Assembly: GCA_001972305.1 (NCBI GenBank) | Contig: BDDD01002647.1 | Coordinates: 234,400 to 298,399 of the forward strand | Origin: Cephalotus follicularis | Taxonomy: Eukaryota; Streptophyta; Magnoliopsida; Oxalidales; Cephalotaceae | Length of the DNA: 64,000 nucleotides | Direction: 5' to 3' | In this document: positions 4,325-60,327 of the stretch, one piece after another | Position numbering within the stretch: position 1 is the stretch's first letter | How the letters are laid out: each line of letters begins with the position of its first letter | Notes under the pieces: model-generated | Seen by the model: only the letters and a program-made list of their open reading frames with translations | The model's database searches: none | Told to the model about the DNA's origin: nothing | Translations under genes and position numbers: made by a program

Positions 4325-4362
4325 AGACATCGACGCCTTTTGGAAAGACGTCGACGCCTTTG
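4325..4362. repeat. Paired TCGA palindromes, 21 bp apart
   Basis: Cores at 4330 and 4351 in the context RACRTCGACGCCTTT. The same spacing recurs in this LTR at 4658/4679 and 4817/4838. Confidence 0.85.
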
Positions 4363-5458
4363 GGGTTTGAGGTACGCGTGGATGCGTGGCATGCACATCG
4401 ACTTTGAGAGAAGGCACCGACATACTGTAAATTCGAGCTTGATATTCATGCATGGTTTATGATCTTGAATGTATAAAAATGCATGATTCTTGAATTGATA
4501 CTGCCACTGGATTGATGCCATGATGTGCTAGATATGTTTGGAGTATCTATATGTTGGTTTCTTGCTATGAAAACCTGTTGTTATGCATGATTGTGGGTTG
4601 TTAAGGCCACTGTTTGATAAGTTGTGGGGTAGAAGATGACTACTGTTGAAAATGACGTCGACTCCTTTTAGAAAGACATCGACGCCATCAAATAATACAC
4701 TGTCGTTTTGAGGATCCAGACTTGAACGTCGACGTGTGAGAAAGGGACCTCGACGCCTCCTGTGGAAGAACGCGCTGATACTGGGACTTGGACATCAACG
4801 TCTGCCATGAAAGACATCGACGCCTTTGGGAAAGACGTCGACTTGTTTGTTACTGTTTGGAGTCTCCTTCATCAAATGATACGAAACGATCCCGATTCCT
4901 GTTAGGGTGCATTTGAGCATATGTATGCATTGCATATGCACTGTTTACTGCCTGATTGTGTACTGTTTGTGTGTTGTTGTGATTTCTAATGTGTTGATAC
5001 TTTAGAAATGCATAGATGAGCTCGGAATAAGATATTTTGAGTACGGAAATTATGTATTGATCAAATAACGTATTTTCAACCGAACCGGTAAACGATTTAC
5101 ACTACTGAAACTGTTACTGATATTTTCTACTGAAAATACCTATTTTCAAATGTTGTCAATTTTGGAAACATTTTGGAAAATAACTGCCTGTTGTCGATCA
5201 AATCGATCATTACCGTTTACTGCACTGTTACTGTTTAAATTCACTGTTTGCTCTGTGAATTGCTTGTGATTGTGTTTGAGCTGCTAGTTGCATGGCGGAG
5301 GTTACCAATGATGACTAGTGGTAGGGTCGAACCTAGGGGCCAGGAGCGTGGCTAGGTGACTCACTGTACTGTTGCCTCGCTTGGTTGCCCGATGTGGGGA
5401 CCGGAGTGGGAGTGTAGCGTGGGGCCAGGAGTTGGCGGCGCTATATACTGTTGTTGTA

Positions 5459-5538
5459 GTCCTATGTGGACATCCTGACTGTTGTTGTGGTCCTATACGG
5501 ACATACTGTACTGTACTGTTTACTGGTCCTTTACGGAC
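5459..5538. repeat. Three GTCC-N5-GGAC hairpins
   Basis: Thirteen-nucleotide inverted repeats at 5459-5471 (loop TATGT), 5490-5502 (loop TATAC) and 5526-5538 (loop TTTAC). The stem is constant and the loop varies. Counterparts exist in other LTR families of this window. Confidence 0.8.
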
Positions 5539-5589
5539 ACTACTGTGATTGTTGACGTAGCCCTGGCCGGGTTACTACTGTACTGTTAC

Positions 5590-5805
5590 TGTATACATAT
5601 ATTTCATATATATATGTGTAACATTGATATTTTAATGTACTGTTATACGTATGCATATTTTTATATAAGTATAAACTGGGTCTCCACTGTACTGCATCAT
5701 TTACGCATTCATATCATGACATGCATTATGTTGACCCCGATTTACTGTTATGTCTTAGCCGAGTGAGGACAAAGGCTAACCCCCTACTTTACAGATTGAT
5801 GCAGT
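5590..5805 (+). promoter_or_regulatory. Candidate core promoter or processing block of the LTR
   Basis: TATA-like AT tracts (5596-5620, TTTTATATAAG near 5659) are followed by an ACTGCATCA box and then by the block GAGTGAGGACAAAGGCTAAC near 5761-5780. The same order occurs in the LTRs at 16240-16400, 19510-19660, 41230-41395 and, on the minus strand, 45343-45480 and 52660-52790. Conservation between families is seen directly; a role in transcription start or 3' end formation is inference. Confidence 0.4.
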
Positions 5806-6164
5806 GGACTGTTGGATCGGCTTGGACGAAGATCAAGTTGTTATCTTGTCATCTTACTGTTTTGTTAACCCTTGTGGATCATGGTTTTTGGATACACCAT
5901 TGTGATGGTATTGTTTATGAAGGAATATTGTTTGTACTGTAAGTTCACGCTCCGTTTTTTGGGCGATTAACACTGTAATAACCTGTATTTGTGTAGCATG
6001 TGGTATGGGACGCACGTTACGAGTTACGGCTTATGTTTTGTTATGCTTCCGCAGCTGTTATTCTTGGAAAAGTTTTAAGTTTTATGGTTTTTGGCATGAG
6101 CTGTATTTTATGTTAATTGCCTTTACCGCTTTTATGTCGCGTTTTATATAAACGGGGTGTGACA

Positions 6165-9603: not shown

Positions 9604-9605
9604 CT

Positions 9606-10236: not shown

Positions 10237-11024
10237 TGTAACGCCCGGTATTTTTCTGAATGTAATATTTTGATTTATGATGTAATCATTGAACTTGATT
10301 TAATAAGAATGTTGAGTTTTAACCTCAAAGATGCTTCCAAACCCTAGTTATGGACTTAAGATGGAGCGTGTATGTTAAAAGTTTGAAACGACACTGTTTT
10401 AGCCAAAAGACATCGACGTCTTTTGGAAAGACGTCGACTCCTTTGTGACCTAGGGCACACGTGAATGCATGGGCATGCACGTCGACTTGGGAAGGAGACA
10501 TCGACACCTTCTTACGAATGGACAAAGACATCGACGCCCGAGGAAAGACGTCGATGCCTTTGTATGAATGGCCTGCACGTTCTTCGTCTGCAGAGGTAGC
10601 ATGCACGGGATTTGTTTAGGGGCTTACCTAACACCTTTTGTGAGTGCTCTGTGGCGTGTTGTGCATGTGGGGGTGTTGCCAGAACATGCCTCACATGGCT
10701 CGTGCAAGGGGAATCCTCACCTGCTACCTGCAATGTAAAGAATGGTTAAAGAATGAAAAGGAAATGCAGAAAAGAGAGTAGGTGGGAGAGAGCATGTGTA
10801 GGGCTGTTAAATGCCAAGAGGATATGTCGGGCGAGAGCCTTCTGCATAAAGGGCACCCTCCCCACTTGTCTCTCTTGTTTTACAATACCAGAAGAGAGAG
10901 AGTGAGTGAGATAGTGACTGTGTGTATTCCACCATTGTTGAAGCTTGGAGCTTGGACCTTGAAGCTACTGGTGCAGCTACGGGACGAACTTGAGGGGCTG
11001 CTGTGACTTCGTGGAATACTAAAA

Positions 11025-11068
11025 GAGGTGGACTTTCGGTTTCTAACTTGAAACCAGAGGTAGGGGAA
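11025..11068 (+). promoter_or_regulatory. Conserved LTR hairpin plus GGTAGGG box
   Basis: GAGGTGGACTTTC is followed by a perfect 6-bp stem GGTTTC/GAAACC with loop TAACTT (11038-11055), then AGAGGTAGGGGAAAG. The sister LTR has it at 12832-12849. Relatives: 34117-34134 and 36610-36627 (minus, stem GATTCC/GGAATC), 39819-39834 (stem GTTCC/GGAAC), 46823-46840 and 54142-54159 (minus, imperfect). AG-GTAGGG resembles a 5' splice donor; that role is inference. Confidence 0.6.
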
Positions 11069-11300
11069 AGCCATACTGTAAATTCGAGCTTAATATTCAT
11101 GCATGGTTTATGAATTCTGAATGTATACAAATGCATGATTCTTGGATTGATACTGTTACTAGATTGATGCTATGAGATGCTAGATGTGTTTTTAGTATCT
11201 ACATGTTGGTTTCTTGCTGTGAAAACCCGTTGTTATGCATGATTGTGGGTGGTTATGGCCACTGTTCGATGAGTCGTGAGGTAGAAGACGACCACTGTTG

Positions 11301-11650
11301 GAAATGACGTCGACTTCTTTTATATAACATCGACGCTATTATGTAATACATTGTCGTTTTGAGGTTCCAGACCCTAAGACATCGACTTCTTTATAATGAC
11401 ATCGACGTCTTTTACGTTTTATCTCGTTACTGACTGAGAGGGATCGACGTCTTTAGGAAGACATCGACACCCTAGGCCGTTTACCTGGTTTCTGTTGAAA
11501 AAGGCATCGACGCCTTTTAGTTAGACATCGACGACATTTCATGATACGCTGTCGTTTGGGGTTCCTTCTGTAGAAGAACATGGGGCCTGGACTTCGATGC
11601 ATGACTCGAAGACATCGACGTCTTTGGGAAAGACGTCGACGTCTTTGCTA
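11301..11650. repeat. TCGA palindrome cluster in the LTR
   Basis: Successive RACRTCGACG motifs occur mostly in pairs 20 or 21 bp apart. The last pair contains AAAGACGTCGACGTCTTT, an 18-bp perfect palindrome holding GACGTC and GTCGAC. A second group lies at 10407-10560. The second LTR repeats both groups at 12200-12355 and 13100-13440. Confidence 0.85.
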
Positions 11651-11812
11651 CTGTTTGGAGATTTCTTCATCGGATGACACGGAACGATCCCAATTTCTAT
11701 TAGGGTGCACTCGAGCATATGTATGCATTGCATATGTACTGTTTACTGCCTGATTGTGTACTGTTTGTGTATTGTTTATGATTTCAAAAGTGTTGATGCT
11801 TTAGAAACTGTG

Positions 11813-11986
11813 CAAGATGATCTATCTTGTGAGGAGTTGCCTGTGCAGATTCTCGATCGGAAGACGCAGACTTTGAGGAACCGAACCATTGCCATGGTCA
11901 AGGTTCAATGGCAGTTTCACAAACCCGATGAGGCAACTTGGGAGCGTGAGGAGGACATCCGAGAGCGCTACCCGCACTTGTTTTAG
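11813..11986 (+). pseudogene. Pol C-terminus with chromodomain end (Ty3/gypsy)
   Basis: The frame reads DDLSCEELPVQILDRKTQ, then [19 protein letters not shown] and [10 protein letters not shown], then TAG at 11984. This is the tail of a chromovirus pol, where a chromodomain follows integrase. It closely resembles the tails of elements G (57500-57669) and H (47663-47830), so this element belongs to the same lineage. Everything upstream is deleted; there is no start codon of its own. Confidence 0.85.
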
Positions 11987-12017
11987 TATTGTGTTAATTT
12001 CGAGGGCGAAATTTCTT

Positions 12018-12031
12018 GAAGGAGGGGTGGA
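12018..12031 (+). other. Polypurine tract
   Basis: GAAGGAGGGGTGGA lies immediately before the LTR start TGTAACG. It primes plus-strand DNA synthesis in LTR retrotransposons. Confidence 0.85.
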
Positions 12032-14600
12032 TGTAACGCCCGGTATTTTCCTGAATGTAATATTTTGATTTACGATGTAATCATTGAACTTGATTTAATA
12101 AGAATGTTGAGTTTTAACCTCAAAGATGCTTCCAAACCCTAGTTATGGACTTAAGATGGAGCGTGTATGTTAAAAGTTTGAAACGGCACTGTTTTAGCCA
12201 AAAGACATCGACGTCTTTTGGAAAGACGTTGACTCCTTTGTGACCTAGGGCACATGTGAATGCATGGGCATGCACGTCGACTCGGGAAGGAGGCATCGAC
12301 ACCTTCTTACGAATGGACAAAGACATCGACGTCCGAGGAAAGACGTCGATGCCTTTGTATGAATGGCCGCACGTTCTTCGTCTGCAGAGGTAGCATGCAC
12401 GGGATTTGTTTAGGGGCTTACCTAACGCCTTTTGTGAGTGCTCTGTGGCGTGTTGTGCATGTGGGGGTGTTGCCAGAACATGCCTCACATGGCTCGTGAA
12501 AGGGGAATCCTCACCTGCTACCTGCAATGTAAAGAATGGTTAAAGAATGAAAAGGAAATGCAGAAAAGAGAGTAGGTGGGAGAGAGCATGTGTAGGGCTG
12601 TTAAATGCCAAGAGGATATGTCGGGGGAGAGACTTCTGCATAAAGGACACCCTCCCCACTTGTCTCTCTCGTTTTACAATACCAGAAGAGAGAGAGAGAG
12701 TGAGATAGTGACTGTGTGTATTCCACCATTGTTGAAGCTTGGAGCTTGGGCCTTGAAGCTACTGGTGCAGCTACGGGACGGACTTGAGGGGCTGTTGTGA
12801 CTTCGTGGAATACGAAAAGGGGTGGACTTTCGGTTTCTAACTTGAAACCAGAGGTAGGGGAAAGCCATACTGTAAATTCCAGCTTAATATTCATGCATGG
12901 TTTATGAATTCTGAATGTATAAAAATGCATGATTCTTGGATTGATACTGTTACTAGATTGATGCTATGAGATGCTAGATGTGTTTTTAGTATCTACATGT
13001 TGGTTTCTTGCTATGAAAACCCGTTGTTATGCATGATTGTGGGTGGTTATGGCCACTGTTCGATGAGTCGTGAGGTAGAAGACGACCACTGTTGGAAATG
13101 ACGTCGACTTCTTTTATATAACATCGACGCTATTATGTAATACAATGTCGTTTTGAGGTTCCAGACCCTAAGACATCGACTTCTTTATAATGACATCGAC
13201 GTCTTTTACGTTTTATCTCGTTACTGACTGAGAGGGATCGACGTCTTTAGGAAGACATAGACACCCTAGGCCGTTTACCTGGTTTCTGTTGAAAAAGGCA
13301 TCGACGCCTTTTAGTTAGACATCGACGACATTTCATGATACGATGTCGTTTGGGGTTCCTTCTGTAGAAGAACATGGGGCCTGGACTTCGATGCATGACT
13401 CGAAGACATCGACGTCTTTGGGAAAGACGTCGACGTCTTTGCTACTGTTTGGAGATTTCTTCATCGGATGACACAGAACGATCCCAATTTCTATTAGGGT
13501 GAACTCGAGCATATGTATGCATTGCATATGTACTGTTTACTACCTGATTGTGTACTGTTTGTGTATTGTTTATGATTTCAAAAGTGTTGATGCTTTAGAA
13601 ATGCACAAATGAGTTTGGAATGAGATGTTTTGAGTATGAAAATATGTGTTGATCAATTAACGTATTTTCAACCGAAAGATTTATACTACTGAAACTGTTA
13701 CTGATATTTTCTACTGAAAATACTTATTTTCAAATGTTGTCAATTTTGGAAACATTTTGGAAAATAACTGCCTATTATTGATCAAGTCGATCATCACTGA
13801 TTACTGTACTGTTACTGTTTAAATGCACTGTTTGCTCTGTGAATTGATTGTGATTGTGTTTGAGCTGCTAGTTGCGTGGCGGAGGTTGCCAATGATGACT
13901 AGTGGTAAGGGCGGGCCTAGGGACCTGGAGTATGGCTAGGTGTCCCACTGTACTGATGCCTCACCCGATTGCCCGATGTGGGGATCGTCGTGGGAGTGTA
14001 GCGTGGGGCCAAGAATTGGCGACGCTACAAACTGTTGTTGTAGTCCTATGTGGACATCCTGACTGTTGTGGTCCTATGCGGACATACTGTACTGTACTGT
14101 TTACTGGTCCTTTACGGACATTACTGTGATTGTTGACGTAGCCCTGGCCGGGTTACTACTGCATTGTTACTGTACACATATATTTTATATATGTAACACT
14201 GATATTTTACTGTACTAAAGGCTAACCCCCTACTGTAACAGATTGATGGAGTGGTCTCGACATGGAGCAAGCACGGAGATTTAAAGAGAAGACTTGTTAT
14301 TTTCTCTTATTTTGGGTTGTTGAACATTTATCATGTTATTTGGTTTTGTAACATTGGATATTTGTTATCTTGTACCGTTTTGTTCACGCTCCGTTTTATG
14401 GGCGATTGACTTGTATGATCTGTATTTGGGTAGCGTACGGTATGGGACGTACGTTACGTATTGACAGCTTATGTTCTTTTATGCTTCCGCAACTCTTATG
14501 CTTGGAAAAGTTTTGAATTTTACGGTTTTCACATGAGCTGTATTTATGTTAATTGCCTTTACCGCTTTAACGCTGCATTTTTTGTAAACGGGGTGTGACA
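12032..14600 (+). repeat. Complete 3' LTR of the deleted gypsy element
   Basis: 2569 bp, TGTAACGCCCGG to GGGGTGTGACA. It holds the hairpin and GGTAGGG box (12832-12868), TCGA clusters, three GTCC-N5-GGAC hairpins (14043-14055, 14071-14083, 14107-14119) and a partly deleted GCTAACCCCCTACTG block at 14221. The 3' portion (CACGCTCCG, TATGGGACG, GCTTCCGC) is shared with the LTRs of B, G and H. Confidence 0.88.
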
Positions 14601-16180: not shown

Positions 16181-18104
16181 ATGACCGTGATTGTGTTGAT
16201 GTAGCCCTGACGGGTTGCACCTGTACTGTGGATATGTATATATAGATACATATATGTATCAACTGTTATATATATACCGTACTGCATCACTGTGCATTCA
16301 TACATGACATGCATTACCATTGAAACCGAACTGTATTTATACTTAGCCGAGTGAGGACAATGGCTAACCCCCTACAGTTTCAGATTGATTTCAGGTTGAT
16401 GCAGCGGATTGTACTATTGAGCTCCGTGGAGCGAATGGAGTTTTATGTTGTTTTACTTTTGAGAAATGTTAATGGATCATTGTAATAAATGAATCGATGT
16501 ATTGATATATATTGTTCACGCTCCGTTTGAGGGCAGTTAACTTTGATGATGTTTATTGTTGTAGCATGTAGTATGGGATGCATGTTACGTTATAATTCGG
16601 CTTATATTTAAATGCTTCCGCAAGATGTTAATGGTTATGGAAAGTTTTAAATTTATGGTAATTTGCATAAGCCGGGTTTATATGTTGATTGCCACCACTA
16701 TATATGTTGTTATGGGTAACGCCCCGAATTTCATAAATAATTATTATGAAACTGGTGCGTGTACAGTTGTGACAAAATCGATGGAGCCCGGAGTATTAAA
16801 AAGGCATTACGCATTTAAGTCGTAATCGTGTTAGCTAAGAAGGCTAATAAAATCTATTTTTAATGCGTGACAATAAAGCCCAAATGTTCGCATTTTTATT
16901 GCGATTATTTTGGTGGTTGTTTGGATAATTTATGTCGCGATTTGCGGAAAAATCAGGACCCGTACCTTAGTATTTTACCAGAAAATACTAAAGAGAAAGC
17001 AAAATAACAAAACAATAAAGGAAGGAAGAAGGGGAAACACGGGCGCATAGCGCGCCCGTGCGTGTTACCTGCAGGGAGAGAGAGACAGGGAGAGAGTGCA
17101 AGAGAGATTGGGAGAGAGATCAGAGCAGAGCGAGTGAGAGCGCGCCGGAGCTACCCACCGGACCAGGGGAGGACGGCGAGCAACCCAGGCCCACAACCCG
17201 CCGGTAAGCCCTTCCCCCTCCTCCTCTTTTCTCTTCTTTTTCCTTTGTTCCCCGCCACTGCCGCGCCTCCTCCCGGCGTTTCCCGGCGTCGTTAGCGTCG
17301 AGGGTGGGGTGGGTTTTCATCTAGAGGACCTGCTCTTCCCATTTTGACCCCCGGTGAGGCGTGATTCCGCCCGAAACGGCCGGAATCAGTTGAATGAGTC
17401 GACTCAGCGAGTCGACTCACTGTCGCCTTGGACCGCGCGTTTAGCGCCGAGTCTTGGCGAGTCATGGGCATGGGTGTGTATAACTGGTGGATATGTGACG
17501 TTTTTGGGTGGTGATCGGACCTGTGGAGGTCCGGTGAGTTGACTCAGTGAGTCACGACTCACTGCTGGCTGTGGCGCGGCGTTCGGCACCAATTCCCGGC
17601 GAGTCTTGACCGGTTTTGTGTAGACCGTTCAATGTGGAACCCATTGATGGGTGTTTCGTAAGCTGGTTGTGTCGGTCGGATTCCGGTCGGCGTTTCGGCG
17701 ACGGAAATGTTTTGTGTGTCGAACGTAACAGAAATGTGTTGTATGTGTAGTGTGCAAGCGGCAATTGGATTTGGCAGTGAGGAACTGATCAATTGGCAAG
17801 AACCGGCTTCGGTTCAACGATTATCAAAAAGGTTCGACAATTGAACCTGCGGCTCGACTGTGCTGCTGTAACAGGTAGGGGAAGCTATACATGCAAGTTT
17901 GAGTTCAATAATATTGTAATGCCATTGATGAAATGCATGATTTGCGAATTGTGAATTGTGTGACTGTGTTAGGGTTGCTATATGAATAGTTAACCTGTCC
18001 TGTATATTGTGTTTTACGATGATTGCGAATTGAATGACATGTGTTGTGTGCTTTGAACTCTTTTGGTTTCGAGGCGTGTTGAGGGAACCGTGTTTTGGTT
18101 CTCT

Positions 18105-18370
18105 TAACCGTCGACGCTTAAGAAAGAAGCATCGACGTTATGGATTGTTATACGGGGAATGAGTCCTGATTTGCGATAAACGTCGACACTTACATAAAAC
18201 GTCGACGCCATGATTTGTTGTATGTGAGAATGGACACGTGTGTCGTTGACGCCTGAGGTTCCTACCTCAGAGCATCGACGCCAAAGGGATGAGACGTTGA
18301 CGCGTAAAGTTCTGGTTGAAAGCATTGACACTAAGAGTTAAGCGGCGACGCTTAAGTGACTGAGTTGAAC
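18105..18370. repeat. TCGA/TTGA motif cluster of family B
   Basis: CCGTCGACGCTTAAG with cores at 18111 and 18132 (21 bp apart), then further pairs 19 and 22 bp apart. Later copies are decayed (GTTGACGC, ATTAACGC), mostly by C-to-T or G-to-A changes. Confidence 0.75.
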
Positions 18371-18678
18371 ATTAACGCCTATATGGTGCATGTTGACGCG
18401 AATAGAGCCCGTTTGCATTATTGAGCATATGTTTGCATTGCATACAATTGTTGATTGAGCTATCACATGTTTTCTAAAATGTTCTTCATTTTAGAAGTGT
18501 ATAAATGGTTTATCAAATCATTGTTATATGGAAATGTATTGTTTTCGAGTATTTTACTATACCTTGAAACTACTTGAAAATGATTGTAAATGGATTGTTA
18601 TATATATTGAGCAAATATATATGTTTTTCAAGTGTTTATATTTATAAATTACTTGGAATGGAATGAGAAACTTGTGAT

Positions 18679-19170
18679 GACTACTAAGCCCTGTTGGGTA
18701 AGTAGCCAAGACTGTGAAATGTTTTATGGCAATGCATTGTTTACAAGTATTATATTTGTTAATAATTACTTGTAATGGATGGATTGATTGTATTTGGCTG
18801 CTAAGCTCTGTTGAGTAAGTAGTCAGGAACTCCACTACTAAGCTCTGTTGAGTAAGTAGCCGGAGATTCCATAAACTGTAGCTACTAAGCTCTGTTGAGT
18901 ATGTAGCTAGGGTTTACCATGCAATGGTTACTAAGCTCTGTTGAGTAAGTAGCCAGGGACTCCCTTTTGGGTTACTAAGCTCTGTTGAGTAAGTAACCAG
19001 GAACTCCACTGCTAAGCTCTGTTGAGTAAGTAGCCGGAGATTCCATATACTGTAGCTACTAAGCTCTGTTGAGTAAGTAGCTAGAGTTTCCCATACAATG
19101 GTTACTAAGCTCTGTTGAGTAAGTAGCCAGGGAACCCGTTTTGGGTTGCTAAGCACTGTTGTGTAAGCAA
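18679..19170. repeat. 44-bp hairpin tandem repeat, second copy
   Basis: About ten units of the same repeat as 15557-15895, with one detached unit at 18679. Unit order differs from the first LTR by one duplicated or lost GGGACTCCC unit. Confidence 0.85.
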
Positions 19171-20007
19171 CTTGAATTGTATTGTTTGTCCGATGTGACT
19201 GATTGACTGTTGTGCCGGTTACTAAACGCAGAGCGGAAGTAGCCGGGTTGCTAAACACAGAGTGGAAGTGACCGGGTGCTAAACACAGAGTGGAAGCATC
19301 CCCGCATAGAGTGTTGTCCGTGGTGACATGATTGATTGACCGTATTGGTTTGTTTGTCCGTTGTGACATGTTTTACTGGATTGTGGGCCCGTTGAGGCAT
19401 AACCGATGTATTGTCTAGTCCTTTGAGGACATAATTATGACTGGTCCGCTGAGGACATGACCGTGATTGTGTTGATGTAGCCCTAACGGGTTGCACCTGC
19501 ACTATGGATATGTATATATAGATACATATATGTATATACTGTTATATATATACCGTACTGCATCACTGTGCATTCATACATGACATGCATTATCATTGAA
19601 ACCAAACTGTATTTATACTTAGCCGAGAGAGGACAAAGGCTAACCCCCTACAGTTTCAGATTGATTTCAGGTTGATGCAGCGGATTGTTACTGTTGAGCT
19701 CCGTGGAGCGAATGGAGTTTTATGTTGTTTTACTTTTGAGAAATGTTAATGGATCATTGTAATAAATGAATCAATGTATTGATGTATATTGTTCACGCTC
19801 CGTTTGTGGGCAGTTAACTTTGATGATGTTTATTGTTGTAGCATGTAGTATGGGATGCATGTTACGTTATAATTCGGCTTATATTTAAATGCTTCCGCAA
19901 GATGTTAATGGTTATGGAAAGTTTTAAATTTATGGTAATTTGCATAAGCCGGGTTTATATGTTGATTGCCACCACTATATATGTTGTTATGGGAACGGGG
20001 TGTAACA

Positions 20008-34972: not shown

Positions 34973-35575
34973 TTTCTATTCAAGGAATGAAATCCCATTA
35001 ACACGTTTTCATTTGGCTGGCTTAATGGTGATCCATATTTGGTGGATCACATCATTGGATGCATGAATTCATCAGAGAGAGGGAGAACACGTTTTCTTGA
35101 TACTGGCATGAACCTGGACATCTTGCTTAGTGAGAGAGGGTCTGGCTTTTGGTTCTAAGAGAACAAAAGAGAGAAAAGAGAGAAAACAATACCATATCAC
35201 CACAACTTGATTTCTATAGGTGGTGTATTGCTTTGACTGAGCATTACTCTCCTATATTGATCCTAGATTAGGATTAGATATATAGGGCTTGCATTTGTTT
35301 GGTTATTCCACTGTTGTCTGTTTCTGAGTTAAAGCTTGAAGTCTCAGAACGGATTCTTAGAGGAAGGAGTTTGGTAGCTCGGCATAATCTCTATCCATGT
35401 ATGTATGAATGTTTTGTTTGATTGGGTTATTGATTAGCGATCCTAGTTTGGTTGTGATCATTTATGGAGTTGGATTATAGGATATTCATTGTTTTAGAGA
35501 CACTTTAATGAAAATTAAAGTTATACATCCTATGCACCTAATGCCTAAAATGACCATAAACGAAGTATTTTTTCT
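34973..35575. other. Unassigned DNA between LTR pieces D and E
   Basis: Apart from the first 30 bases, which look like the internal edge of family D, nothing is recognised. GA-rich segments at 35072-35090 and 35160-35190 are LTR-like. Confidence 0.4.
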
Positions 35576-37441: not shown

Positions 37442-38464
37442 TTCTACTACCACGTATGCACACGAGTGGTACCTGCCACTGAATAGGCTCTTAGCTGGAA
37501 CTAACCACTAGACATGCCTAGTAGGTTTAATCTATTGATCTGAATCTACTACAGGACTACCCTCTGGGAGTTAGATTACCATTCTACTTGACTTGTACAG
37601 ATATGAGGTCACAAGCTCTATAAACTTTACTTGACTTAATGTGATTGTATTTAATGTATTTGATTGATTAGACTTGATATACTTGACCTAATTGATCTAC
37701 TCGATTTGATAGGAGCTCTATGTCACTTACCATTGGGATGGACTAGTAAACTTGATCTAACCAATTCAAGCCTATTAAGACGCCATCCTATACAAAGGAT
37801 TACCCTCCGGGTTAGATTGTCTATATCTGATTAGACTTGATTGATATTGGTTAAGTGTACCCGCACTCTTTTATTAATTGTCCTTTTGATGATTATTGGG
37901 CTATTGATAGATCCCACTCTTATGCACCAATATGGGAGGTTGTATACGACTGGTAGATCGCAACTGGCCTTCATGCATTCTTTTATGCCATTCATTATTA
38001 CTGTACACTCATTACCTGACACTGTGCACCTACACATTTATATAAGATACTGCATACATGTATATATGGATGTACCTAATTAGCCTTATAGCTAACCCAT
38101 CCTTTGGGATGGAAAATCTATTGTGTTGCAGGTAGTGCAGCTGGGACCAGCTCTCGTGGGGGCTACTAAATCCCACTTTCTGCAGAATACTTAAGGACTC
38201 CAGTGACAAGACTTGAACGCTTTATCTTTCTTGTTTTTACCATGTATTCAACCTGTACTTTATTTGTATCAATATTGTACCGAAGCTCTTGTTTGCAATA
38301 ATTAAGTATGGGTTACTGTTATTAGTTACGAAACTTGATGAATTAAATGTATTGTAATAAAGTTTTAAATTATCCTTCTTTTTATTATGCTACCTAGGCC
38401 CGACTACTGTATATGATTTGAAATTGACACCACGTGTCTGGCCCTCCAGGTGCGGCGTGTCACA
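37442..38464 (+). repeat. 3' portion of an LTR, family F
   Basis: Ends GGTGCGGCGTGTCACA, a typical gypsy LTR end. Upstream AT-rich TATA-like tracts (38036-38075) and a CTTATAGCTAACCCATCC segment resemble the layout of the other LTR 3' regions. The 5' part is missing, probably displaced by E. Clade unknown. Confidence 0.45.
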
Positions 38465-38997
38465 CACATCTTGTATCCTATTATTCAGGCATTGTATAAC
38501 TATTTAAGATATACCATTTCATCATTCGTTACATCTATTGAATTGATTAGCACTCGCCACAAAAATAATATTATGACAATCAATACTTTTGACCACCACC
38601 AGTCACCCTATCTTTCTCTCAAACGCCATCACATTTATTGAACTAAATTTGTAGATAATGATATGGTATATAATTAGTGACACTATGCATTGACATTAAT
38701 TTGCTCAGTATTTCGTGACAGGTAATGTTGTGATTAAAAGTATAATTTTTTTGTGACAATAGAAAGTATTGTCACGAATATATATATATATATATATATA
38801 TGGGTATAGGTATAATTTGTCACTGATAATTTATTACATCAATGACGAGTTTAATATTAGTCACTGATGTTAATTTGTCTACCAAATGTAATTTTACTAT
38901 ATTGAATAATCAATACATTGGCGACTTTGTAGTGACAACATAGTTAAAAGTCAATGATAATATACTATTAGTAGCGTCATTTAATTTCGTTACTATT
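38465..38997. mobile_element. AT-rich CACTA-like transposon region, left part
   Basis: Repeated short motifs in both orientations (GTCACTGAT, TTAGTGACA, TTGTGACAATAG, TATTGTCACGAA) resemble the subterminal repeats of plant CACTA DNA transposons. They continue after element G at 60333-60440 (GGTCACTAAAAGTG, GCCACTAAAATG). No CACTA terminus or transposase was found, so the class is tentative. Confidence 0.4.
38778..38801. repeat. (TA)n microsatellite
   Basis: Uninterrupted AT dinucleotides, about 12 units. Confidence 0.92.
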
Positions 38998-44963: not shown

Positions 44964-47617
44964 TGTCACGCCCCGGTTCTAGGGAGGCGGGCATTAAAGC
45001 AGTAAAGGCAATTAACATAAGGTACAGCTCATGCAACAACCATAAAGCTTAAACATTTCCAAGGATCATCAGTTGCGGAAGCATAACAAAAATTATAAGC
45101 TGTAAACTTATAACGTGCATCCCATACTGCACGCTACCCAAATACAAGTCATTATAGTTAAAATCCCACAAAAACGGAGCGTGAATTACAGTACAACATT
45201 ATAATCCATCAGTAAACAAAACCATAACAACGGTACATCAGTCCTTTAACCAAAACCAGGTTTATTACAAGACAGTAGAATAAGCAAAATCAAGAACATA
45301 ACAACTTGATCTTCGTCCATGTCAGTCCAACCGTTCCACTGCATCAATCTGTAAAGTAGGGGGTTAGCCTTTGTCCTCACTCGGCTAAGTCATAAAAGCA
45401 ACTCGGGATCAACATTAAATGCATGTCATGTAATGTATGCATAAATGATGCAGTGTAGGAAAACCCGTTTATATATATATGAGAATATATATATTTTAAC
45501 AGTATAGTAAAATAACAGTGAGTACATATATAAGAAAATATATGTATGCAAGACCAGTACAATAGTAACCCGTCCAGGGCTACATCAACAAACACAGGAA
45601 TGTCCGAGAAGGACCAACAGGCAGTACAGGATGTCCACACAGGACTACAATAGGCAGGATGTCCACATAGGACTACAACAGGCAGTATGTGTAGCGCCAC
45701 CAACTCCTGGCCCCGCGCTACAGTCCCACTCCGGCCCCTACATCAGGCAACCGAGCGAGGCAACAGTACAGGACAGTGAGTTACCCAGCCATACTCCTGG
45801 CCCCTAGGTCAACCCTCCACTAGTCGGCGCTGGCAGTCTCCGCCATGCAACTAGTAGCTCAAGCACAAACGCATAGCAATTCACAGAGCAAACAGTGAAT
45901 TCAAGCAGTAACAGTACAGTAAACAGGACAGTAGTGATCGTTTAGATCCACAACAGGCAGGTTATTTCCAAGATGTTTCAAAAGTGACAACATTTATATA
46001 TTGCATTTTCAGTAGAAAATACCATTAAACAGTTTCAGTAACAGTACAGTAAACAGTAATGATCGTTTAGATCGACAACAGGCAGGTTATTTCCAAAATG
46101 TTTCCAAAAGTAACAACATTTGAGATATTGCATTTTCAGTAGAAAATACCATTAAACAGTTTCAGTAGTGTAAATTATTTATCAGTTCGTTCGAAAATAC
46201 GTTATTTAACCAATACATATTTTCATACTAAAAATAGTACATTCCGAGTTCACATATGCATTTCTAAATATCAAAACTTTAGAAATCATAAACAATTCAT
46301 AAACAGTACACAAACAGGCAGTAAGCAGGGTGTATGCAATGCATACAAATGCTCTAATGCATCCTAAGCGAAATCGGGATCGTCAGGTATCAAAAAGGTA
46401 AAATAGTCCAAACAGGACCTTAAAGCGTCGACGTTTATTCATCAGGCGTCGACGCTTATGTGTCTGGGCGTCGACCTCTCTTCCTTTGAACATCGACGTT
46501 TAAGCGCATTTCAATATATAATACGCAGTTCACAGGGCAAAGCGTCGACGGTCATTACGTAGGAATCGACGGTTTAAACCAGGGGTCGTCTTCTACCTCT
46601 AAACATGGCTAACCAGTGACATTTCCAAGCATAATACATGCGTTCCAACAGGTAATAAGCACAGAAAACGGCCATGAAATATCATGTGACACACCCAGCA
46701 TAAGATAGAATCATTTCAGTGACTAAAAACGGATCATTAAACCATGAATTTCATGCAAGAACATCACTGCACAAACATTAAGCATTGAACACGAAACTAC
46801 AATTATGGCTTCCCCTACCTTTGGCCTCAAGTTAGAATCCGAAAGTCCACCTCTTTTAGTATTCCACGACATCACTTGAGTCCCCAGGTACGGCTTAGAA
46901 GCTCCCTGGTTCATCCTAGCAGCTGGTGTGCAAGCTCCAAGCTTCCATGCTCAACAATTTTGGTTAAGTCCGTCTCCCAAGTTCTCTTGCTCTCTTTTAC
47001 TGCTCACAGAGTCTCTATCAAGTCTCTGGTTCTCTGTAACCGAAAGGAGGGTGAGAGGAGTAGGTATTTTATGTTAAACGTTTTTGTTTCTTCTGCTAAA
47101 ACCCACCAGATCAACTCCTCCTCTTCATGCAGACCAGGTGTAACAGGTGTCATTCTCTTCCTCTTCTCAGGCCATGCAATGAAGGATTCTCCCTCTGTCC
47201 CATGCCCTGTTGTTACAGGTATGTCTGACAACAAGAGGCATGCATGCCACATCCTTAAACGTCTGCCAAGATGCCTGATAAAAGGCAAGAAAACACCTCC
47301 CTGTGACACGTTCATCTGCTGTCATGAATGTGCAGAACACGCCGCAAAGCGTCGATAGTTACATGCAAGCGTCGGCGCTTATGTGTTGTATTTAAACGCG
47401 CGTTTTAACGGCTTAAGCGTCGACACTCCAAGTCTAGGCGTCAGCGCTTTAACCCTAAAACTGTGTTGTTTTTACCAAAACACACATTTAACATTCCCCT
47501 CACAATTGGATTCCAATTCCTTCATCAAATTCGGAAATTCCATCCTTTATTAATTCCACAATTCAAAAGTACAAATACATTGTGAAATTACAATACAAGA
47601 AAATCTCGGGCGTTACA
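44964..47617 (-). repeat. 3' LTR of element H
   Basis: 2654 bp; the minus strand starts TGTAACGCCCGA and ends GGGGCGTGACA. It contains TCGA motifs with cores at 46428, 46449, 46471, 46493, 46545 and 46566, GTCC-N5-GGAC hairpins at 45602-45614, 45633-45645 and 45661-45673, an imperfect hairpin at 46823-46840 before AAAGGTAGGG, and the AGGACAAAGGCTAACCCCC block at about 45358-45377. Confidence 0.92.
46421..46575. repeat. Phased AAGCGTCGACGCTT motifs of element H
   Basis: Six TCGA cores spaced 21, 22, 22, 52 and 21 bp. The sister LTR repeats them at 53740-53895. Confidence 0.88.
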
Positions 47618-47637
47618 TCCACCCCTCATTCAAGGAA
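47618..47637 (-). other. Polypurine tract of element H
   Basis: The minus strand reads TTGAATGAGGGGTGGA directly before the LTR start; the same sequence follows the middle LTR at 54937. Confidence 0.85.
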
Positions 47638-47662
47638 TTTCGTCCCCGAAATTAAAACAAAT

Positions 47663-52281: not shown

Positions 52282-54936
52282 TGTCATGCCCCGGTTCTAG
52301 GGGGGCGAGCATTAAAGCGGTAAAGGCAATTAACATAAGGTACAACTCATGCAACAACCATAAAGCTTAAACTTTTCCAAGGAACATCAGTTGTGGAAGC
52401 ATAACAAAAATCATAAGCTGTAAACTCGTAGCGTGCATCCCATACTGCACGCTACCCAAATACAAGTCATTATAGTTAAAAGCCCACAAAAACGGAGCGT
52501 GAATTAGAGTACAAGATTATAATCCATCAGTAAACAAAACCATAACAACGGTACATCAGTCCTTTAACAAAAACCAGGTTTATTACAAGACCGGAGAATA
52601 AGCAAAATCAAGAACATAACAACTTGATCATCGTCCATGTCAGTCCAACCGTTCCACTGCATCAATCTATAAAGTAGGGGGTTAGCCTTTGTCCTCACTC
52701 GACTAAGTCATAAAAGCAGCTCGGGATCAACATTAAATGCATGTCATGTAATGTATGCATAAATGATGCAGTGTAGGAAAACCCGTTTATATATATATGA
52801 GAATATATATATTTTAACAGTACAGTAAAATAACAGTGAGTACATATATAAGAAAATATATGTATGCAAGACCAGTACAGTAGTAACCCGGCTAGTAATA
52901 CATCAACAAACACAGGAATGTCCGAGAAGGACCAACAGGCAGTACAGGATGTCCACACAGGACTACAACAGGCAGGATGTCCACATAGGACCACAATAGG
53001 CAGTATGTGTAGCACCGCCAACTCCTGGCCCCACGCTACACTCCCACTCCGTCCCCTACATCAGGCAACCGAGCGAGGCAACAGTACAGGACAGTGAATT
53101 ACCCAGCCATACTCCTGGCCCCTAGGTCAACCCTCCACTAGTCGGCGCTGGCAGTCTCTGCCATGCAACTAGTGGCTCAAGCACAAACACATAGCAATTC
53201 ACAGAGCAAACAGTGAATTCAAGCAGTAACAGTACAGTAAACAGGACAATAGTGATCATTTAGATCCACAACAGGCAGGTTATTTCCAAGATGTTTCAAA
53301 ACTGACAACATTTGAAATATTGCATTTTCAGTAGAAAATACCATTAAACAGTTTCAGTAACAGTACAGTAAACAGTAATGATCGTTTAGATCGACAACAG
53401 GCAGGTTATTTCCAAAATGTTTCCAAAAGTAACAACATTTGAGATATTGCATTTTCAGTAGAAAATACCATTAAACAGTTTCAGTAGTGTAAATTATTTA
53501 TCAGTTCGTTCGAAAATACGTTATTTAACCAATACATATTTTCATACTAAAAATAGTACATTCCGAGTTCACATATGCATTTCTAAATATCAAAACTTTA
53601 GAAATCATAAACAATTCACAAACAGTACACAAACAGGCAGTAAGCAGGGTGTATGCAATGCATACAAATGCTCTAATGCATCCTAAGCGAAATCGGGATC
53701 GTCAGGTATCAAAAAGGTAAAATAGTCCAAACAGGACCTTAAAGCGTCGACGTTTATTCATCAGGCGTCGACGCTTATGTGTCTGGGCGTCGACCTCTCT
53801 TCCTTTGAACATCGACGTTTAAGCGCATTTCAATATATAATACGCAGTTCACAGGGCAAAGCGTCGACGGTCATTACGTAGGAATCGACGGTTTAAACCA
53901 GGGGTCGTCTTCTACCTCTAAACATGGCTAACCAGTGACATTTCCAAGCATAATACATGCGTTCCAACAGGTAATAAGCACAGAAAACGGCCATGAAAAA
54001 TCATGTGACACACCCAGCAAAAGATAGAATCATTTCAGTGACTAAAAACGGATCATTAAACCATGAATTTCATGCAAGAACATCACTGCACAAACATTAA
54101 GCATTGAACACGAAACTACAATTATGGCTTCCCCTACCTTTGGCCTCAAGTTAGAATCCGAAAGTCCACCTCTTTTAGTATTCCACGACATCACTTGAGT
54201 CCCCAGGTACGGCTTAGAAGCTCCCTGGTTCATCCTAGCAGCTGGTGTGCAAGCTCCAAGCTTCCATGCTCAACAATTTTGGTTAAGTCCGTCTCCCAAG
54301 TTCTCTTGCTCTCTTTTACTGCTCACAGAGTCTCTATCAAGTCTCTGGTTCTCTGTAACCGAAAGGAGGGTGAGAGGAGTAGGTATTTTATGTTAAACGT
54401 TTTTGTTTCTTCTGCTAAAACCCACCAGATCAACTCCTCCTCTTCATGCAGACCAGGTGTAACAGGTGTCATTCTCTTCCTCTTCTCAGGCCATGCAATG
54501 AAGGATTCTCCCTCTGTCCCATGCCCTGTTGTTACAGGTATGTCTGACAACAAGAGGCATGCATGCCACATCCTTAAACGTCTGCCAAGATGCCTGATAA
54601 AAGGCAAGAAAACACCTCCCTGAGACACGTTCATCTGCTGTCATGAATGTGCAGAACACGCCGCAAAGCGTCGATAGTTACATGCAAGCGTCGGCGCTTA
54701 TGTGTTGTATTTAAACGCGCGTTTTAACGGCTTAAGCGTCGACACTCCAAGTCTAGGCGTCAGCGCTTTAACCCTAAAACTGTGTTGTTTTTACCAAAAC
54801 ACACATTTAACATTCCCCTCACAATTGGATTCCAATTCCTTCATCAAATTCGGAAATTCCATCCTTTATTAATTCCACAATTCAAAAGTACAAATACATT
54901 GTGAAATTACAATACAAGAAAATCTCGGGCGTTACA
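52282..54936 (-). repeat. Middle LTR of element H
   Basis: 2655 bp, nearly identical to 44964-47617 with few substitutions. It is followed on its right by the polypurine tract and pol end of a second internal region, so it serves as 5' LTR of the gag-pol unit and 3' LTR of the reduced unit at 54937-56242. Confidence 0.92.
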
Positions 54937-56242: not shown

Positions 56243-56247
56243 CTGTG

Positions 56248-57669
56248 TTACTGGATCACATCAGGGATGCACAACCACACGATCCGGAGTTACAACGAAT
56301 TCGGGAGAACCTGGATTCGGAATCCGATTTTCGAGTACACGCTGATGGTATTCTGAGATATTGGGGACGTGTGTGTCTCCCGAATGAACCAGGATTGAAG
56401 AATATATTACTTCGCGGGGCCCATATATCTTTGTACAGTATTCATCCTGGTAGCACTAAAATGTATCAAGATATGAAGAAGACTTACTGGTGGCCTGGCA
56501 TGAAGCGCGAAATTACAGAACATGTCACGAAGTGTTTGACTTGCCAGAGGGTCAAGGCTGAACACCACAGACCGGCAGGACTGTTGCAGTCATTACCAGT
56601 GGCAGAGTGGAAATGGGAACACATTACGATGGACTTTGTTTTCAGATTTCCACTGACTAGGCATCGTCATAATGCCGTGTGGGTTATTGTTGATAGACTC
56701 ACCAAATCGGCACACTTTTTACCTACACACGTCACTGACTCAGCGAGCAAGTTGGCTCGATTATATGTGAAGGAGATTGTGAGACTGCACGGTGTTCCGG
56801 TGAGCATCGTTTGTGATAGGGATTCGATCTTCACTTCCAACTTCTGGAAGAGATTTCAGACAGCCTTCGGAACAAGATTGAATCTCAGTACTGCTTTTCA
56901 CCCTCAAACAGATGGACAGTCAGACCGTACCATCCAAACCTTGGAGGATATGCTTCGGGCTTGTGTGATCGATTTTGCTGGGACGTGGGAAGACCATATT
57001 CCTTTGATAGAGTTTTCATACAATAACAGCTATCACGCGAGTATTGGTATGGCTCCATACGAGGCACTGTATGGGATGAGGTGTAGGTCACCCATCTATT
57101 GGGATGAGGTTGGTGAACGACCATTGCTTGGATCGGATTTGGTGGAGGAGACTTCGGAGAAAGTCAAGTTCATCAAAGAGAAGTTACTAGCAGTACAGAG
57201 TCGGTAAAAGAGCTATGTCGACAGTGTGAAAAGAAGGCCTTTAACCTTCAATGTTGGAGATTACAGGTTTTTGAAAGTATCTCCGTGGAAAGGTGTGTAA
57301 AGATTCGGGAAGAAGGGCAAGTTAGCGCCACGCTATATTGGTCCTTTTGAGATTCTAGAGAGGGTTGGGGAGGTAGCTTATCAGCTAGCCTTGCCTCCTA
57401 CTTTGTTGAGCGTACATGATGTCTTCCATGTATCTATGCTATGAGGTTATATCTGAGATCCAACACATGTCTTGGATTTTGACTCGGTTACGGTGAGGGA
57501 TGATCTTTCTTGCGAGGAGTCACCCGTGAGAATCTTGGATTGGAAGACACAAGTATTGAGGAACCGGACCATTCCGATGGTAAAGGTTCAGTGGCAATTT
57601 CATCGACCGGATGAAGCGACTTGGGAACGTGAGGATGATGTCCGAGAACGTCACCCGCATTTTGTTTAG
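56248..57669 (+). pseudogene. Integrase with chromodomain-like tail of element G
   Basis: Directly continues the pol of G after element [30 protein letters not shown] and CLTCQRVKAEHH (zinc region) are followed by catalytic residues in MDFVFRFPLT, VCDRDSIF and DGQSDRTIQ. The last reads D where C and H have E, so the catalytic glutamate is replaced by aspartate. The first 320 codons are open. Later stops at 57205, 57298, 57442 and 57454 fit C-to-T changes of CAA and CGA codons. The tail [14 protein letters not shown] and VRERHPHFV ends at TAG 57667. Confidence 0.9.
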
Positions 57670-58181
57670 CATAAAAATGTGTTGTTTTTAATGCATTATT
57701 TGTGATATTTTTATGCTTGGAATAGACTACTTTGGTTGTGTTTTAATGATTTTCAGGTACAAGTGTTTAAAGACCAAAGTGCAAGAATATTACCCCAAAG
57801 TGTGCATAATTGAAGCTTAAAGCATAAAGATTGAAGAATTGCAGAATTCTGCAGAAAACAGGACAAAGAAGTCGACTCCTTTCAATACAAGTCAATGTCT
57901 TTTCTGGGTTGGAAAATGTAGTCGACGTCTTTCCTTTAGAAGTCGACGTCTTTTCTGGGCAACGCAACAATCTTCAAACGAGCTATGAACAACAAGTCGA
58001 CGTTTTTCAACAATTGCATCGACGTCTTTTAGCAAAAATGACCTGTAACTTCTGGACCAAAACACGTCGACGCACTTCCAGAAGAAGTCGATGTCTTTTA
58101 CTCGCAGTTTAGCAAGTCGCGACTTTTACACAAAAGGAGTCGACGCCTTTCCAGAAGAAGTCGACGCCTTCCTCTGTTTTA
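57670..58181. other. Foreign segment replacing the end of G and start of its LTR
   Basis: Just after the pol stop the expected untranslated end, polypurine tract and first about 38 bp of the LTR are missing. Instead there is 0.5 kb beginning ATAAAAATGTGTTG with GATTTTCAGGTACAAG near 57750, which reminds me of Athila/Tat LTR sequence. It carries its own TCGA array: cores 57922/57943, 58067/58088 and 58140/58161, each 21 bp apart, in the context AGAAGTCGACGTCTTT. No target duplication was found, so it arrived by recombination or has lost its ends. Confidence 0.6.
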
Positions 58182-60327
58182 AGATGTAATCTTATGTTGA
58201 ATTAATGAAAATGTTGGAGATTTCAACCTCAATAATGTTACCAAACCCTAATTATTGTTTTGGGGAAAGAAATGTGCATGATAAAACAAAAATGGCACAG
58301 TTTTGGGGAAACCGCGTCGATGTCTTTGGAAAGACGTCGACGCCTATGGGAGCAAAGGCGTACGTGAATGCATGTACATGCACGTCGATGTAGGCAAAGA
58401 CATTGACCCCCACATACGAAAAGGAAAAAGACATCGACATCTATGGAAGACGTCAACGTCTATGGAAGACGTCGATGTCTATGGAAGACGTCGACGTCTT
58501 TGGAAAGAATGTCAGCCACGTTATGAACCGAAAGAGTAACATGCAAGAGGGAAGGAATTAGAATCCTTGCAGGCGCCTTGAGACACGGGAAGGAGACGTG
58601 TTGATCATGCACAAGGGCCTCCTGACCTGCATGACTGAAGAAGGGTGAAGTAGGTCACAAGTGTTGCCATGCATGCAACCTGCAAAAGAAAAGATGAGAA
58701 GAAAACAAAATAGAATGCTGAGTTCTGGGAAAGAGGGAGAGAACACGAGAGTGTTCATTGAATGCAAGGAGAAAGAGGATGGGGGAGCCATCTGCATAAG
58801 AACAACCCCCTCCCCATCTCTCTCTATCGTTTAAAACACCAAAGTAATGGAAGAGGAGGAAACAAGTGAGTGGGAGAAGGAGAGAGACACCATTGTTGAG
58901 CTTAGTTGGAGCTGGGAACTTGGAGCTGGTGGCTTGCAGCAACGGAAAGGACCTAGAGGCTGCTGTTACCAGTTTGGAACTTAAAGGGGTGGACTTTCCA
59001 GTTCTTAACGTGGAATAACAAGGTAGGGGAAAGTGATGATTCTTATACATTCTTTTTTTGAGTTATAAGATAATGAATGTCATTGATGCATTGCATGTTA
59101 ATGGGTGAATTGTAATCTCTGAACTTCTGTGATGATTACTGTGAAATACGGAGTAACCATGCGTGTGTGATTACATGAATATGTGAACTGGTTTGTGTGA
59201 AGGATGGATTTGATAATGGCTTGGTGTGTTAAAACTATGGAGAAAGCGTTCTGGGTTGGATAGACGTCGACGTCTACATGAAGACGTCGATGCCTTAGTG
59301 TGAAAATGAGAAAGACATCGATGCTTGAGTAAAGACATTGATGCCTTTTCTGGGCATTATAGAACAGTAATGTTATGCCTTCGTGTGTGAATGCGAAAGA
59401 CATCGATGTCTTTGGGAATACATCGACGCCTTTTCTGGGTATTGTAGAACAGTAGTGTTTACTGTTGTTGGTGAACTGCCCTTGGTGATTGCATGTTTAT
59501 TCATGAAATGGTGTTCTGGTTATATTCCCTGTTAACCAGTAGCATGCCTTACACGTTGAGAGAGTGAGATTCGTTTATCTGATTGTTTAGCCGTCGTGCT
59601 AAGCAACCTATACGGAGGACTTACTTCAAACCGTTCGCAAACGGGGATTGGAGTAAGAGTGCATGACGTTGGGGCCAGGAGGTGGCGACGGTCATGACGA
59701 TTTGTTTGTCTGGTTCCTTTTTGGGGACATGCTTGCTACTTGTGTTGATATAGCCTTATGAGGTTATACCTGTATTGTGAACATGCATATACTTATACAT
59801 GTATATACTGTGATAAATACACACTGCGATATATATACTGTACTCCATCATAATGCATTCATTCATGTTGCTCATTATCATATACCTCGAACTGTATTTA
59901 TGAGTCTTTTCACTTAGTCGAGTGAGGACAAAGGCTAACCCCTACTGTAAAAGATTCATGGAGTGAGGTTTGATATAGAGCAGCGCAGGGAGACATAAAG
60001 AGAAGACTGAGTTGTTCTTATATTGTTATGTATTGGATTTTGGAATAATGTTTATAACATTTGGATTATTGTAACGCGAGTTATTTATTCGTACTGTATT
60101 ATCACGCTCCGTTTATGGGCGATCGACAATGTTATTGGGTTTTATATAAACTTTGTGGGTATCACGTAGTATGGGATGCGTGATACATATTTAAATTCAG
60201 CTTATTTAATGTTATTGCTTCCGCTATTGAAGGTTTTTGTTTTATGGATTATTGCATAAGCTTAATTATGTTGCGTTGATTGCCTTACCGCCTTAATGTT
60301 GGCCTCTTGGAAAAATGGGGTGTGACA
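58182..60327 (+). repeat. 3' LTR of element G, truncated
   Basis: Matches 39036-41761 but lacks the first 38 bp and an internal stretch equivalent to about 40398-41010 (junction near 59580). It ends GGGGTGTGACA before the CTATT duplication. It keeps the hairpin region (about 59001-59016) and the conserved 3' portion. Confidence 0.88.
58431..58502. repeat. 19-bp motif repeat, four units
   Basis: Cores at 58434, 58453, 58472 and 58491 in the unit ATGGAAGACGTCGACGTCT, all 19 bp apart. The 5' LTR has two units at 39291 and 39310, so the array gained or lost units after insertion. Confidence 0.9.

Follow-up and report, generated by a model that had tools for sequence, protein, structure and literature searches.

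TCGA-core near-palindromic arrays in the long terminal repeats of Ty1/copia and Ty3 retrotransposons of Cephalotus follicularis

We analyzed a 64,000-nt stretch of the Cephalotus follicularis genome (C2647:234400-298399, contig BDDD01002647.1; hereafter the window), in which the long terminal repeats (LTRs) of retrotransposons carry rows of short, nearly palindromic sites around a TCGA core. All genome-wide counts and comparisons refer to this one plant genome of 1.577 Gb (~1.58 Gb). The window is made up of nested plant Ty3 retrotransposons, and its proteins are those of plant retrotransposon gag-pol: eight of ten tested open reading frames (ORFs) match gag, protease, reverse transcriptase (RT), RNase H, integrase, or chromodomain profiles, one has no profile match, and one has only a weak match to DUF3397. 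In the element designated E, positions 47663-48529 encode a chromodomain (PF00385, E-value 9e-5, 22.7 bits, cut-off 25.1) together with SH3_Tf2-1, so that a chromodomain follows the integrase as in Ty3-type pol, and RT and RNase H domains are present in the window ORFs. Among the best 120 of 7993 matches to the RT of element G, the top named relatives are from Lotus, Tanacetum, Vitis, and Iris.

Element boundaries were mostly set by LTR starts (TGTAACGCCC or TGTAATACCC) and ends (GGGTGTGACA or GGGTGTTACA), with the TGGTATCAGAG primer site and GGAGGGGTGGA-type tracts as further marks. Judged by chromodomain, RT, LTR ends, and primer binding site (PBS), most window elements look like Tekay/Del chromoviruses. 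This name describes the carriers only; arrays also occur outside the Tekay/Del lineage.

The sites fall into arm classes (I to III, defined below), and the elements lie on the forward strand unless noted. A solo Tekay-type LTR (A, 4152..6164, termini TGTAACGCCC..GGGTGTGACA) has seven class I sites at 4330-4838. The internally deleted Tekay-type element A2 (10237..14600), recognized by a 98% direct repeat, a polypurine tract (PPT), termini, and a flanking ACCAC duplication, consists of a 5' LTR part (10237-11807), a remnant with the PPT, and a 3' LTR (12032-14600), with 11 mostly class I sites per LTR copy. The Tekay-type LTR B (16715..20007, start approximate, end motif at 19998) aligns to the LTRs of A, A2, G, and E and has five sites at 17399-18202, comprising GAGTCGACTC and class II forms. 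Element C encodes gag, protease, and RT domains between a 5' LTR (21285..24148, PBS at 24154) and a 3' LTR (28432..31247, with termini, PPT at 28421) that are 95.6-96.6% identical and carry class III arrays at 22478-22633 and 29567-29722. Region D (31248..38997, no strand assigned) has no recognized LTR ends and contains 14 scattered, largely class II-like sites.

The Tekay-type element G starts with a 5' LTR (38998..41761, with termini and PBS) carrying 11 class I sites at 39194-40493. Its 3' LTR (58177..60327, start missing) is 94-97% identical to the 5' LTR and has nine class I sites at 58337-59423; a CTATT duplication lies outside both ends. The nested Tekay-type element E is on the reverse strand, with its 3' LTR at 44964..47617 (with termini; class II sites at 46428-46545 and 47420) and its 5' LTR at 52282..54936 (98.4% identical to the former, PBS at 52268; class II sites at 53747-53864 and 54739). 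Between the G pol end and the G 3' LTR lies a truncated foreign promoter module (57663..58176), probably the U3 (unique 3' region) of another Ty3 LTR, which has eight sites at 57872-58161 and is 78% identical to a module at another locus (L029). The 57872-58161 array, one of those listed in a preliminary description of the window, is therefore part of this fused piece and not of a Tekay LTR. Within 57663-58177 the foreign piece is joined directly to the 3' LTR, which lacks its first ~36 bases. G nevertheless retains an intact outer CTATT target duplication, and the fusion could have arisen, among other ways, by template switching during reverse transcription.

The window contains 271 TCGA, with 193 expected under a first-order Markov null, and the excess is far stronger for TCGA flanked by at least four complementary pairs out of six (79 vs. 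8.1). Among the 16 four-base palindromic cores, ATAT (40) and TATA (39) come next, and the other GC-containing cores reach 0-22. The assigned LTR stretches, 26,650 bases in all, hold 87 of the 110 window sites, and only four lie in the ~12 kb of internal C, G, and E sequence. Gaps between consecutive TCGA peak at 19-22 bp (6, 18, 24, and 8 cases). Clustering of TCGA-core palindromes in LTRs and a spacing of mostly 19-22 bp, as the preliminary description had proposed, are thus both borne out. Most of the individual forms that it listed were also recovered: AAAGACGTCGACGTCTTT at 11636 and 13430, CAGTCGACTG in C, ATGCGTCGACGTG at 33577, GAGTCGACTC at 92, 17399, and 17412, and the array at 57872-58161. 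On the other hand, AAGCGTCGACGCTT is nowhere exact in the window, its longest form being AGCGTCGACGCT at 36092 and 61966.

Similar enrichment was observed elsewhere. We examined 20 further 10-kb stretches, taken at the same position of even-numbered contigs and picked before reading, hence not strictly random; these 200 kb include 9.6 kb of N, and one stretch is almost all N, leaving 19 usable. Plain TCGA is at expectation in this sample (543 vs. 532), but palindromic TCGA is enriched 3.3-fold with at least four pairs (82 vs. 25) and 6.3-fold with at least five. Among other cores only ATAT and TATA reach 2-fold and 5-fold at these thresholds. Ten of the 19 stretches contain TCGA arrays (16 arrays vs. 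a mean of 0.15 over 20 shuffles). The AT-only cores ATAT, TATA, AATT, and TTAA form 10-32 arrays by raw count, and the other eleven cores form 0-2. A pattern search of viral contigs matched four contigs (L001-L004), and translating the arrays as a route to homologs gave no candidate with three shared words.

Arm symmetry falls to chance (0.25) at the eighth base (304 sites, 53 arrays), and the site unit is therefore ~18 bp. About three arm classes can be distinguished, which are common to unrelated elements and sometimes mixed. Class I, with the half-site TCGA-CGTCTTT, is carried by A, A2, G, the LTR family of locus L008, a Ty1/copia LTR (L013 and L044, judged by the LTR start to be the same LTR type), and a second Ty3 module (L029 and L013). 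Class II (CGCTTAA) occurs in B, D, E, and L015, and both class I and class II sites are present in L019. Class III (CTG), in which only ~3 arm bases are kept, is present in C and its relatives and also in L021 and the start of L022, both of which align with C only over the C array region (47-214 bp); the L021-C alignment falls at a different array-like place from that used in the nine-group phase test below. The arms had been called private to each family, a description that does not hold with class I in at least four groups, class III outside C, and a mixed LTR. When class III arms are held fixed across the window and loci, the cores are TCGG (9), CCGA (4), and TCGA (11), so class III may tolerate another core.

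Exact units were counted genome-wide with the reversed unit as control, the counts including multiple copies of one LTR family. We found 4083 places for the exact class I unit (18 for the control), 212 for class II (0), and 28,876 for class III (65). The commonest class I form among those counted is not the perfect palindrome but a one-letter arm variant, AAAGACATCGACGTCTTT, with 37,431 places (161, strands summed). Of 12 further loci around exact class I places, four match A, A2, or G and eight belong to the high-copy L008 LTR family. Ahead of the L008 LTR, profile search finds a Ty3-type SH3_Tf2-1 domain without a chromodomain, and we call this family only Ty3-type.

The observed/expected ratio of CpG is 1.42-2.04 in seven class I/II array stretches, compared with 0.43-0.94 in matching LTR or pol stretches. 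One might suppose that DNA methylation is drawn to, or kept off, the symmetric CpG triplets themselves, with no one specific protein binding them, as in the CG-island idea of the preliminary description, and classes I and II (ratios of 1.4-2.0) would agree with this. However, the class III array shows no CpG enrichment (0.87 vs. 0.96 in its comparison stretch), and class I pairs conserve arm sequence beyond the CpGs (see below). We consider a methylation element of this kind very unlikely.

The LTRs of A, A2, B, E, and G had been treated as independent families, but they align with one another at 64-87% identity in blocks of at least 100 bases, and C aligns with none of them. Based on sequence comparison, these five form one homologous LTR clade in which classes I and II occupy the same positions. 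Two palindromes spaced by 21 bp, located ~50 bp ahead of a conserved block, belong to class I in A, A2, L005, L006, and L007, and their orthologs belong to class II in E and partly in L015. In a tree of the neighboring 420 bases (built from 12 of 13 pieces, with four of the nine inner branches open and one row on a very long branch), the two E copies and L015 group with the mixed L019 (support 94/97). Orthologous sites and tree together indicate that the classes were exchanged in place and not by a new array arising elsewhere.

Outside this clade, the carriers appear to be unrelated. When the array spans were removed, the G, C, L008, copia L044, L029, L022, and L024 stretches showed no mutual match at an E-value of 1e-3, and both positive controls (G with A2, and L029 with the module at 57663) were recovered; a variant with masked arrays missed the known L029/57663 homology and was too insensitive, so the array-removed variant was used. 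The copia LTR has 18 sites from +125 to +647 after its start, a TATA box at +751, and a primer site at about +1305, followed by Retrotran_gag_2 and RVT_2 ORFs. The L029 module is 96% identical to that in L013 and lies 5' of protease and RT ORFs; the RT at L029 and the RT of G share 38% identity. Elsewhere in the genome, too, arrays are carried by LTRs of the lineages seen in the window. The arrays at L022:6504-6768 and L024:3434-3657 adjoin ORFs matching PF20167 (Transposase_32) and PF04195 (Transposase_28).

To compare sites with their surroundings, we aligned 15 LTR pairs and tested 12; the pairs share LTRs and are not independent, and P values are uncorrected for several tests. In the class I pairs A2-G, G-L018, and L005-L007, the arms are more alike than the remaining LTR (0.70 vs. 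0.57, P = 0.011; 0.85 vs. 0.65, P = 6e-5; 0.89 vs. 0.78, P = 0.011). In the class I/II pairs A-E, L005-E, and L007-E, the arms are less alike than the remaining LTR (A-E, 0.54 vs. 0.71, P = 0.021; L005-E and L007-E, 0.51 vs. 0.68, P = 0.013 and P = 0.024). Core identity in these pairs is no evidence because sites were chosen with TCGA in both members. With the outer arms fixed and any core allowed, the ratio of intact core CpG to one-step transitions is 71:11, compared with 66:50 for the arm CpG (P = 9e-6). Genome-wide, the class I unit that has lost the core CpG on one side occurs at 383 places (0 for the reversed control, strands summed), against 37,431 with one arm-CpG change, a difference that founder copies could also produce.

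Could the rows be unselected, functionless repeats, in which a 20-21 bp unit of an ancestral LTR was duplicated in tandem and then carried on by descent and template switching? The homology of the A, A2, B, E, and G arrays, the grouping of class II LTRs with the mixed one (94/97), the fact that symmetry is a property of the class, and the weak alignment among array regions of different groups are all consistent with this. Against it, the same core and class occur in copia and Ty3 elements with unalignable flanks, the core is kept while neighboring CpGs decay, and distances at odd half-multiples of 20-21 bp (~31, 51, and 72 bp) would not be produced by unit duplication. We therefore regard this explanation as improbable.

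These distances were analyzed in a phase test with one member per group with unalignable flanks. The copia array was taken from L013, its flank having been compared from L044, and L021 and the L022 start were left out since both align with C. For the seven groups, distances of 26-130 bp (n = 87) gave a vector strength of 0.493 at 10.5 bp (null 0.093; none of 3000 jitters reached it; best period 10.3), and distances of 26-80 bp (n = 45) gave 0.552 (null 0.138; none of 3000; best period 10.2). A nine-group version including L021 and the L022 start gave 0.477 (null 0.090), and the copia array of L044 alone 0.505 (null 0.123; none of 3000). Across 26 hand-chosen array stretches (178 sites, several LTRs homologous), the value for 26-80 bp was 0.417 at 10.5 bp against 0.100 when jittered (none of 2000; best period 10.2). 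Many distances lie near 31, 51, and 72 bp, so that copying of a 21-bp unit does not account for the whole pattern. A helical test on consecutive gaps gave P = 0.012 for gaps >25 bp and P = 0.0046 for 26-80 bp. In the 19 sampled stretches, TCGA sites with at least three pairs are phased (n = 119; none of 500). Among the 13 cores other than TCGA, ATAT, and TATA, four had at least 15 distances and none was phased (AATT, P = 0.06). A constant core in helical phase with changing flanks, as described earlier, is thus seen in Ty1/copia, in two Ty3 lineages, and in LTRs with unalignable flanks.

Where a clear TATA box is present, the position relative to the promoter could be determined. TATA lies 90 and 96 bp past the last site in two copies of the second Ty3 module and 104 bp past it in the copia LTR, placing the site cluster upstream of the LTR core promoter in both lineages. 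This position bears on a further explanation, namely RNA hairpins in the element transcript (dimerization, packaging, or stability signals) with TCGA as the loop and the changing complementary flanks as stems. The TATA positions suggest that the arrays lie upstream of the transcription start, and the spacing follows the DNA helix. Class III stems would be only ~3 bp, and no match in the window attains the gathering score of an Rfam family. Sense-strand mismatches are A:C in 51 cases and G:T in 27, opposite to what wobble tolerance predicts, and sense-RNA hairpins were rejected on this ground. An RNA function of any such kind seems extremely improbable.

The arrays lie in U3, ~100 bp before TATA in two unrelated lineages; their sites are in helical phase, retain the core, and in some pairs conserve the arms of their class; and their carriers are unrelated. 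Together these features fit an enhancer read by a dimeric protein. We infer from this that a protein binds and activates, that it is of host origin, and that arm class corresponds to factor specificity. On balance, the arrays are probably U3 enhancers for a dimeric, likely host-encoded factor, which were gained by or passed between different retrotransposons. They would act as upstream activating sequences, with each ~18-bp unit (core RTCGAY plus 7-bp arms in class I) recognized by a DNA-binding dimer; units at whole helical turns would place the bound dimers on the same face of the DNA, in a row ending ~100 bp before the TATA box where that is clear. Unrelated retrotransposons may have acquired such rows separately or from each other because, as we propose, a pre-existing plant factor, most likely host-encoded, drives their transcription. 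The arms would change as sets (classes I, II, and III) when a lineage moves between factors or paralogs. As possible leads, GTCGAC is similar to a site preference reported for some CBF/DREB factors, and two GACGTC boxes are present in class I.

Several observations weigh against the enhancer reading. Tekay-type LTRs have TATA-like words, none of them at a constant distance from the array. Consecutive gaps give best periods of 9.3-9.7, and in the 19 stretches TCGA sites with at least four pairs are not significantly phased (n = 39, P = 0.17) while low-symmetry sites reach P = 0.046. Symmetry measured between different sites of an array is almost as high as that inside a single site. A plain homodimer also does not predict the behavior of the commonest unit, which is off-centre and has a strong orientation bias in Tekay-1 (54:7) but none in the L008 family (22:20). 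No arm effect was seen in the same-class pairs A-A2 and A-L007 (class I) and E-L015 (class II) or in the cross-class pair A2-E; L006-E (P = 0.08) and the class I pair A2-L007 (P = 0.07) fall short, and among pairs aligned without a test A-L015 is equal (0.67 and 0.67), A-L019 is 0.55 vs. 0.61, and E-L019 is 0.42 vs. 0.66. Finally, the array regions can be aligned between groups at 64-71% over 100-260 bp. Rows of similar units necessarily align, and this may account for the similarity; it also means that bare arrays could have been exchanged between lineages. Descent of all arrays from one exchanged sequence, which the preliminary description had named as a counter-explanation, applies to A, A2, B, E, and G, whose arrays share descent, but the seven array-removed groups have no common sequence. 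The other condition named there, a lack of such clusters in LTRs of these lineages elsewhere, is contradicted by the arrays seen at other loci, so that neither counter-argument holds completely.

The arrays have the look of a host gene switch that genome parasites took over several times. A more specific scenario is tentative and rather doubtful: a small host family of dimeric proteins, with at least three arm specificities around RTCGAY, might have been captured independently by Ty1/copia and several Ty3 lineages, which keep core and phase and rewrite the arms of whole arrays upon a paralog switch, so that the arrays record an arms race or niche partitioning. If the enhancer reading is right, one site grammar (core, arm class, helical phase, and ~100 bp before TATA) would be common to members of both retrotransposon superfamilies in this genome. 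One could then test directly whether retrotransposons arrive at the same host activators and change from one to another, and the tens of thousands of exact sites would be a genome-wide tag for the activator and for the factor behind genome expansion.

Clusters of sites in retrotransposon LTRs and motif arrays in transposable elements (TEs) are already known. In tobacco Tnt1 and Tto1, repeated short U3 boxes reportedly drive LTR transcription under host control. Their sequences are different, and these boxes are not known to form one core common to superfamilies.

The Brassicaceae COPIA LTRs of ONSEN/COPIA78 are reported to carry clustered nGAAn heat shock factor sites that grew by duplication and recur in several families (PMC5059998). 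The present arrays are likewise clusters of short sites in LTRs, and the proposed reading by a host factor would follow the same logic. The sites there are nGAAn, whereas here they are ~18-bp RTCGAY near-palindromes of several arm classes in Ty1/copia and Ty3 alike. Nine array stretches contain no three-unit and 0-2 two-unit nGAAn elements each, so ONSEN-like heat shock clusters are not what is seen.

A second related system is that of VANDAL Mutator-like elements (MULEs), in which a TE-encoded VANC protein binds tandem motif arrays that differ between related families (PMC5735166; PMC10398659). Here, too, short motifs form tandem arrays in non-coding TE DNA and differ between relatives, as in the orthologous sites of A and E (class I vs. 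class II). Unlike VANDALs, the carriers are LTR retrotransposons, the sites are near-palindromic, the classes are common to unrelated elements, and no MULE with VANC and no TE-encoded factor was seen, VANC domains not having been searched for. The string "palindrom" does not occur in the main text of PMC5735166. The earlier statement that no system of this kind had been described was thus too strong, judging from PMC5735166 and PMC5059998. No paper describing the present arrays was found by title and abstract start in the open-licence literature, nor did the four unit strings, searched there as text, lead to a retrotransposon paper by title and abstract start.

The arrays might also be VANC-like in function, docking a TE-encoded or trans-supplied protein that removes silencing marks, with family-specific arms that block cross-activation. 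Coordinated motif change of arrays in non-coding TE DNA parallels what is reported for VANDALs (PMC5735166), and class I and II arrays are CpG-rich. Nevertheless, classes common to unrelated elements are not family-specific, and the internal regions measure 4.3 kb in C and 4.7 kb in E, a length that corresponds to gag-pol. Their ORFs of at least 200 amino acids are gag-pol wherever a profile matched, in a survey that did not cover smaller or broken ORFs and did not search for VANC-type domains. Such an anti-silencing role is unlikely, and the enhancer reading is preferred.

Some further features of the window deserve mention. A 3.17-kb stretch comprising an E LTR and the chromodomain end is duplicated at 98.4% (44964-48137 and 52282-55456), so that E resembles an LTR-internal-LTR-internal tandem, with an extra 0.8-kb LTR piece at 55457-56242. 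Each copy of a 1.16-kb direct repeat around B contains a 44-46 bp tandem repeat (CTAAGCTCTGTTGAGTAAGTAGCC..., at 15563-15891 and 18836-19133). Both E LTRs contain 28-31 bp repeats (ACAGGATGTCCACA.., 45594-45690 and 52912-53008), and a repeat on the other strand of A (5446-5546) is similar to them by eye. The last part of the window, 61658-64000, is probably the start of another Ty3-type element, whose RT is ~43-52% identical to the Tekay-type set and which contains one AGCGTCGACGCT site at 61966.

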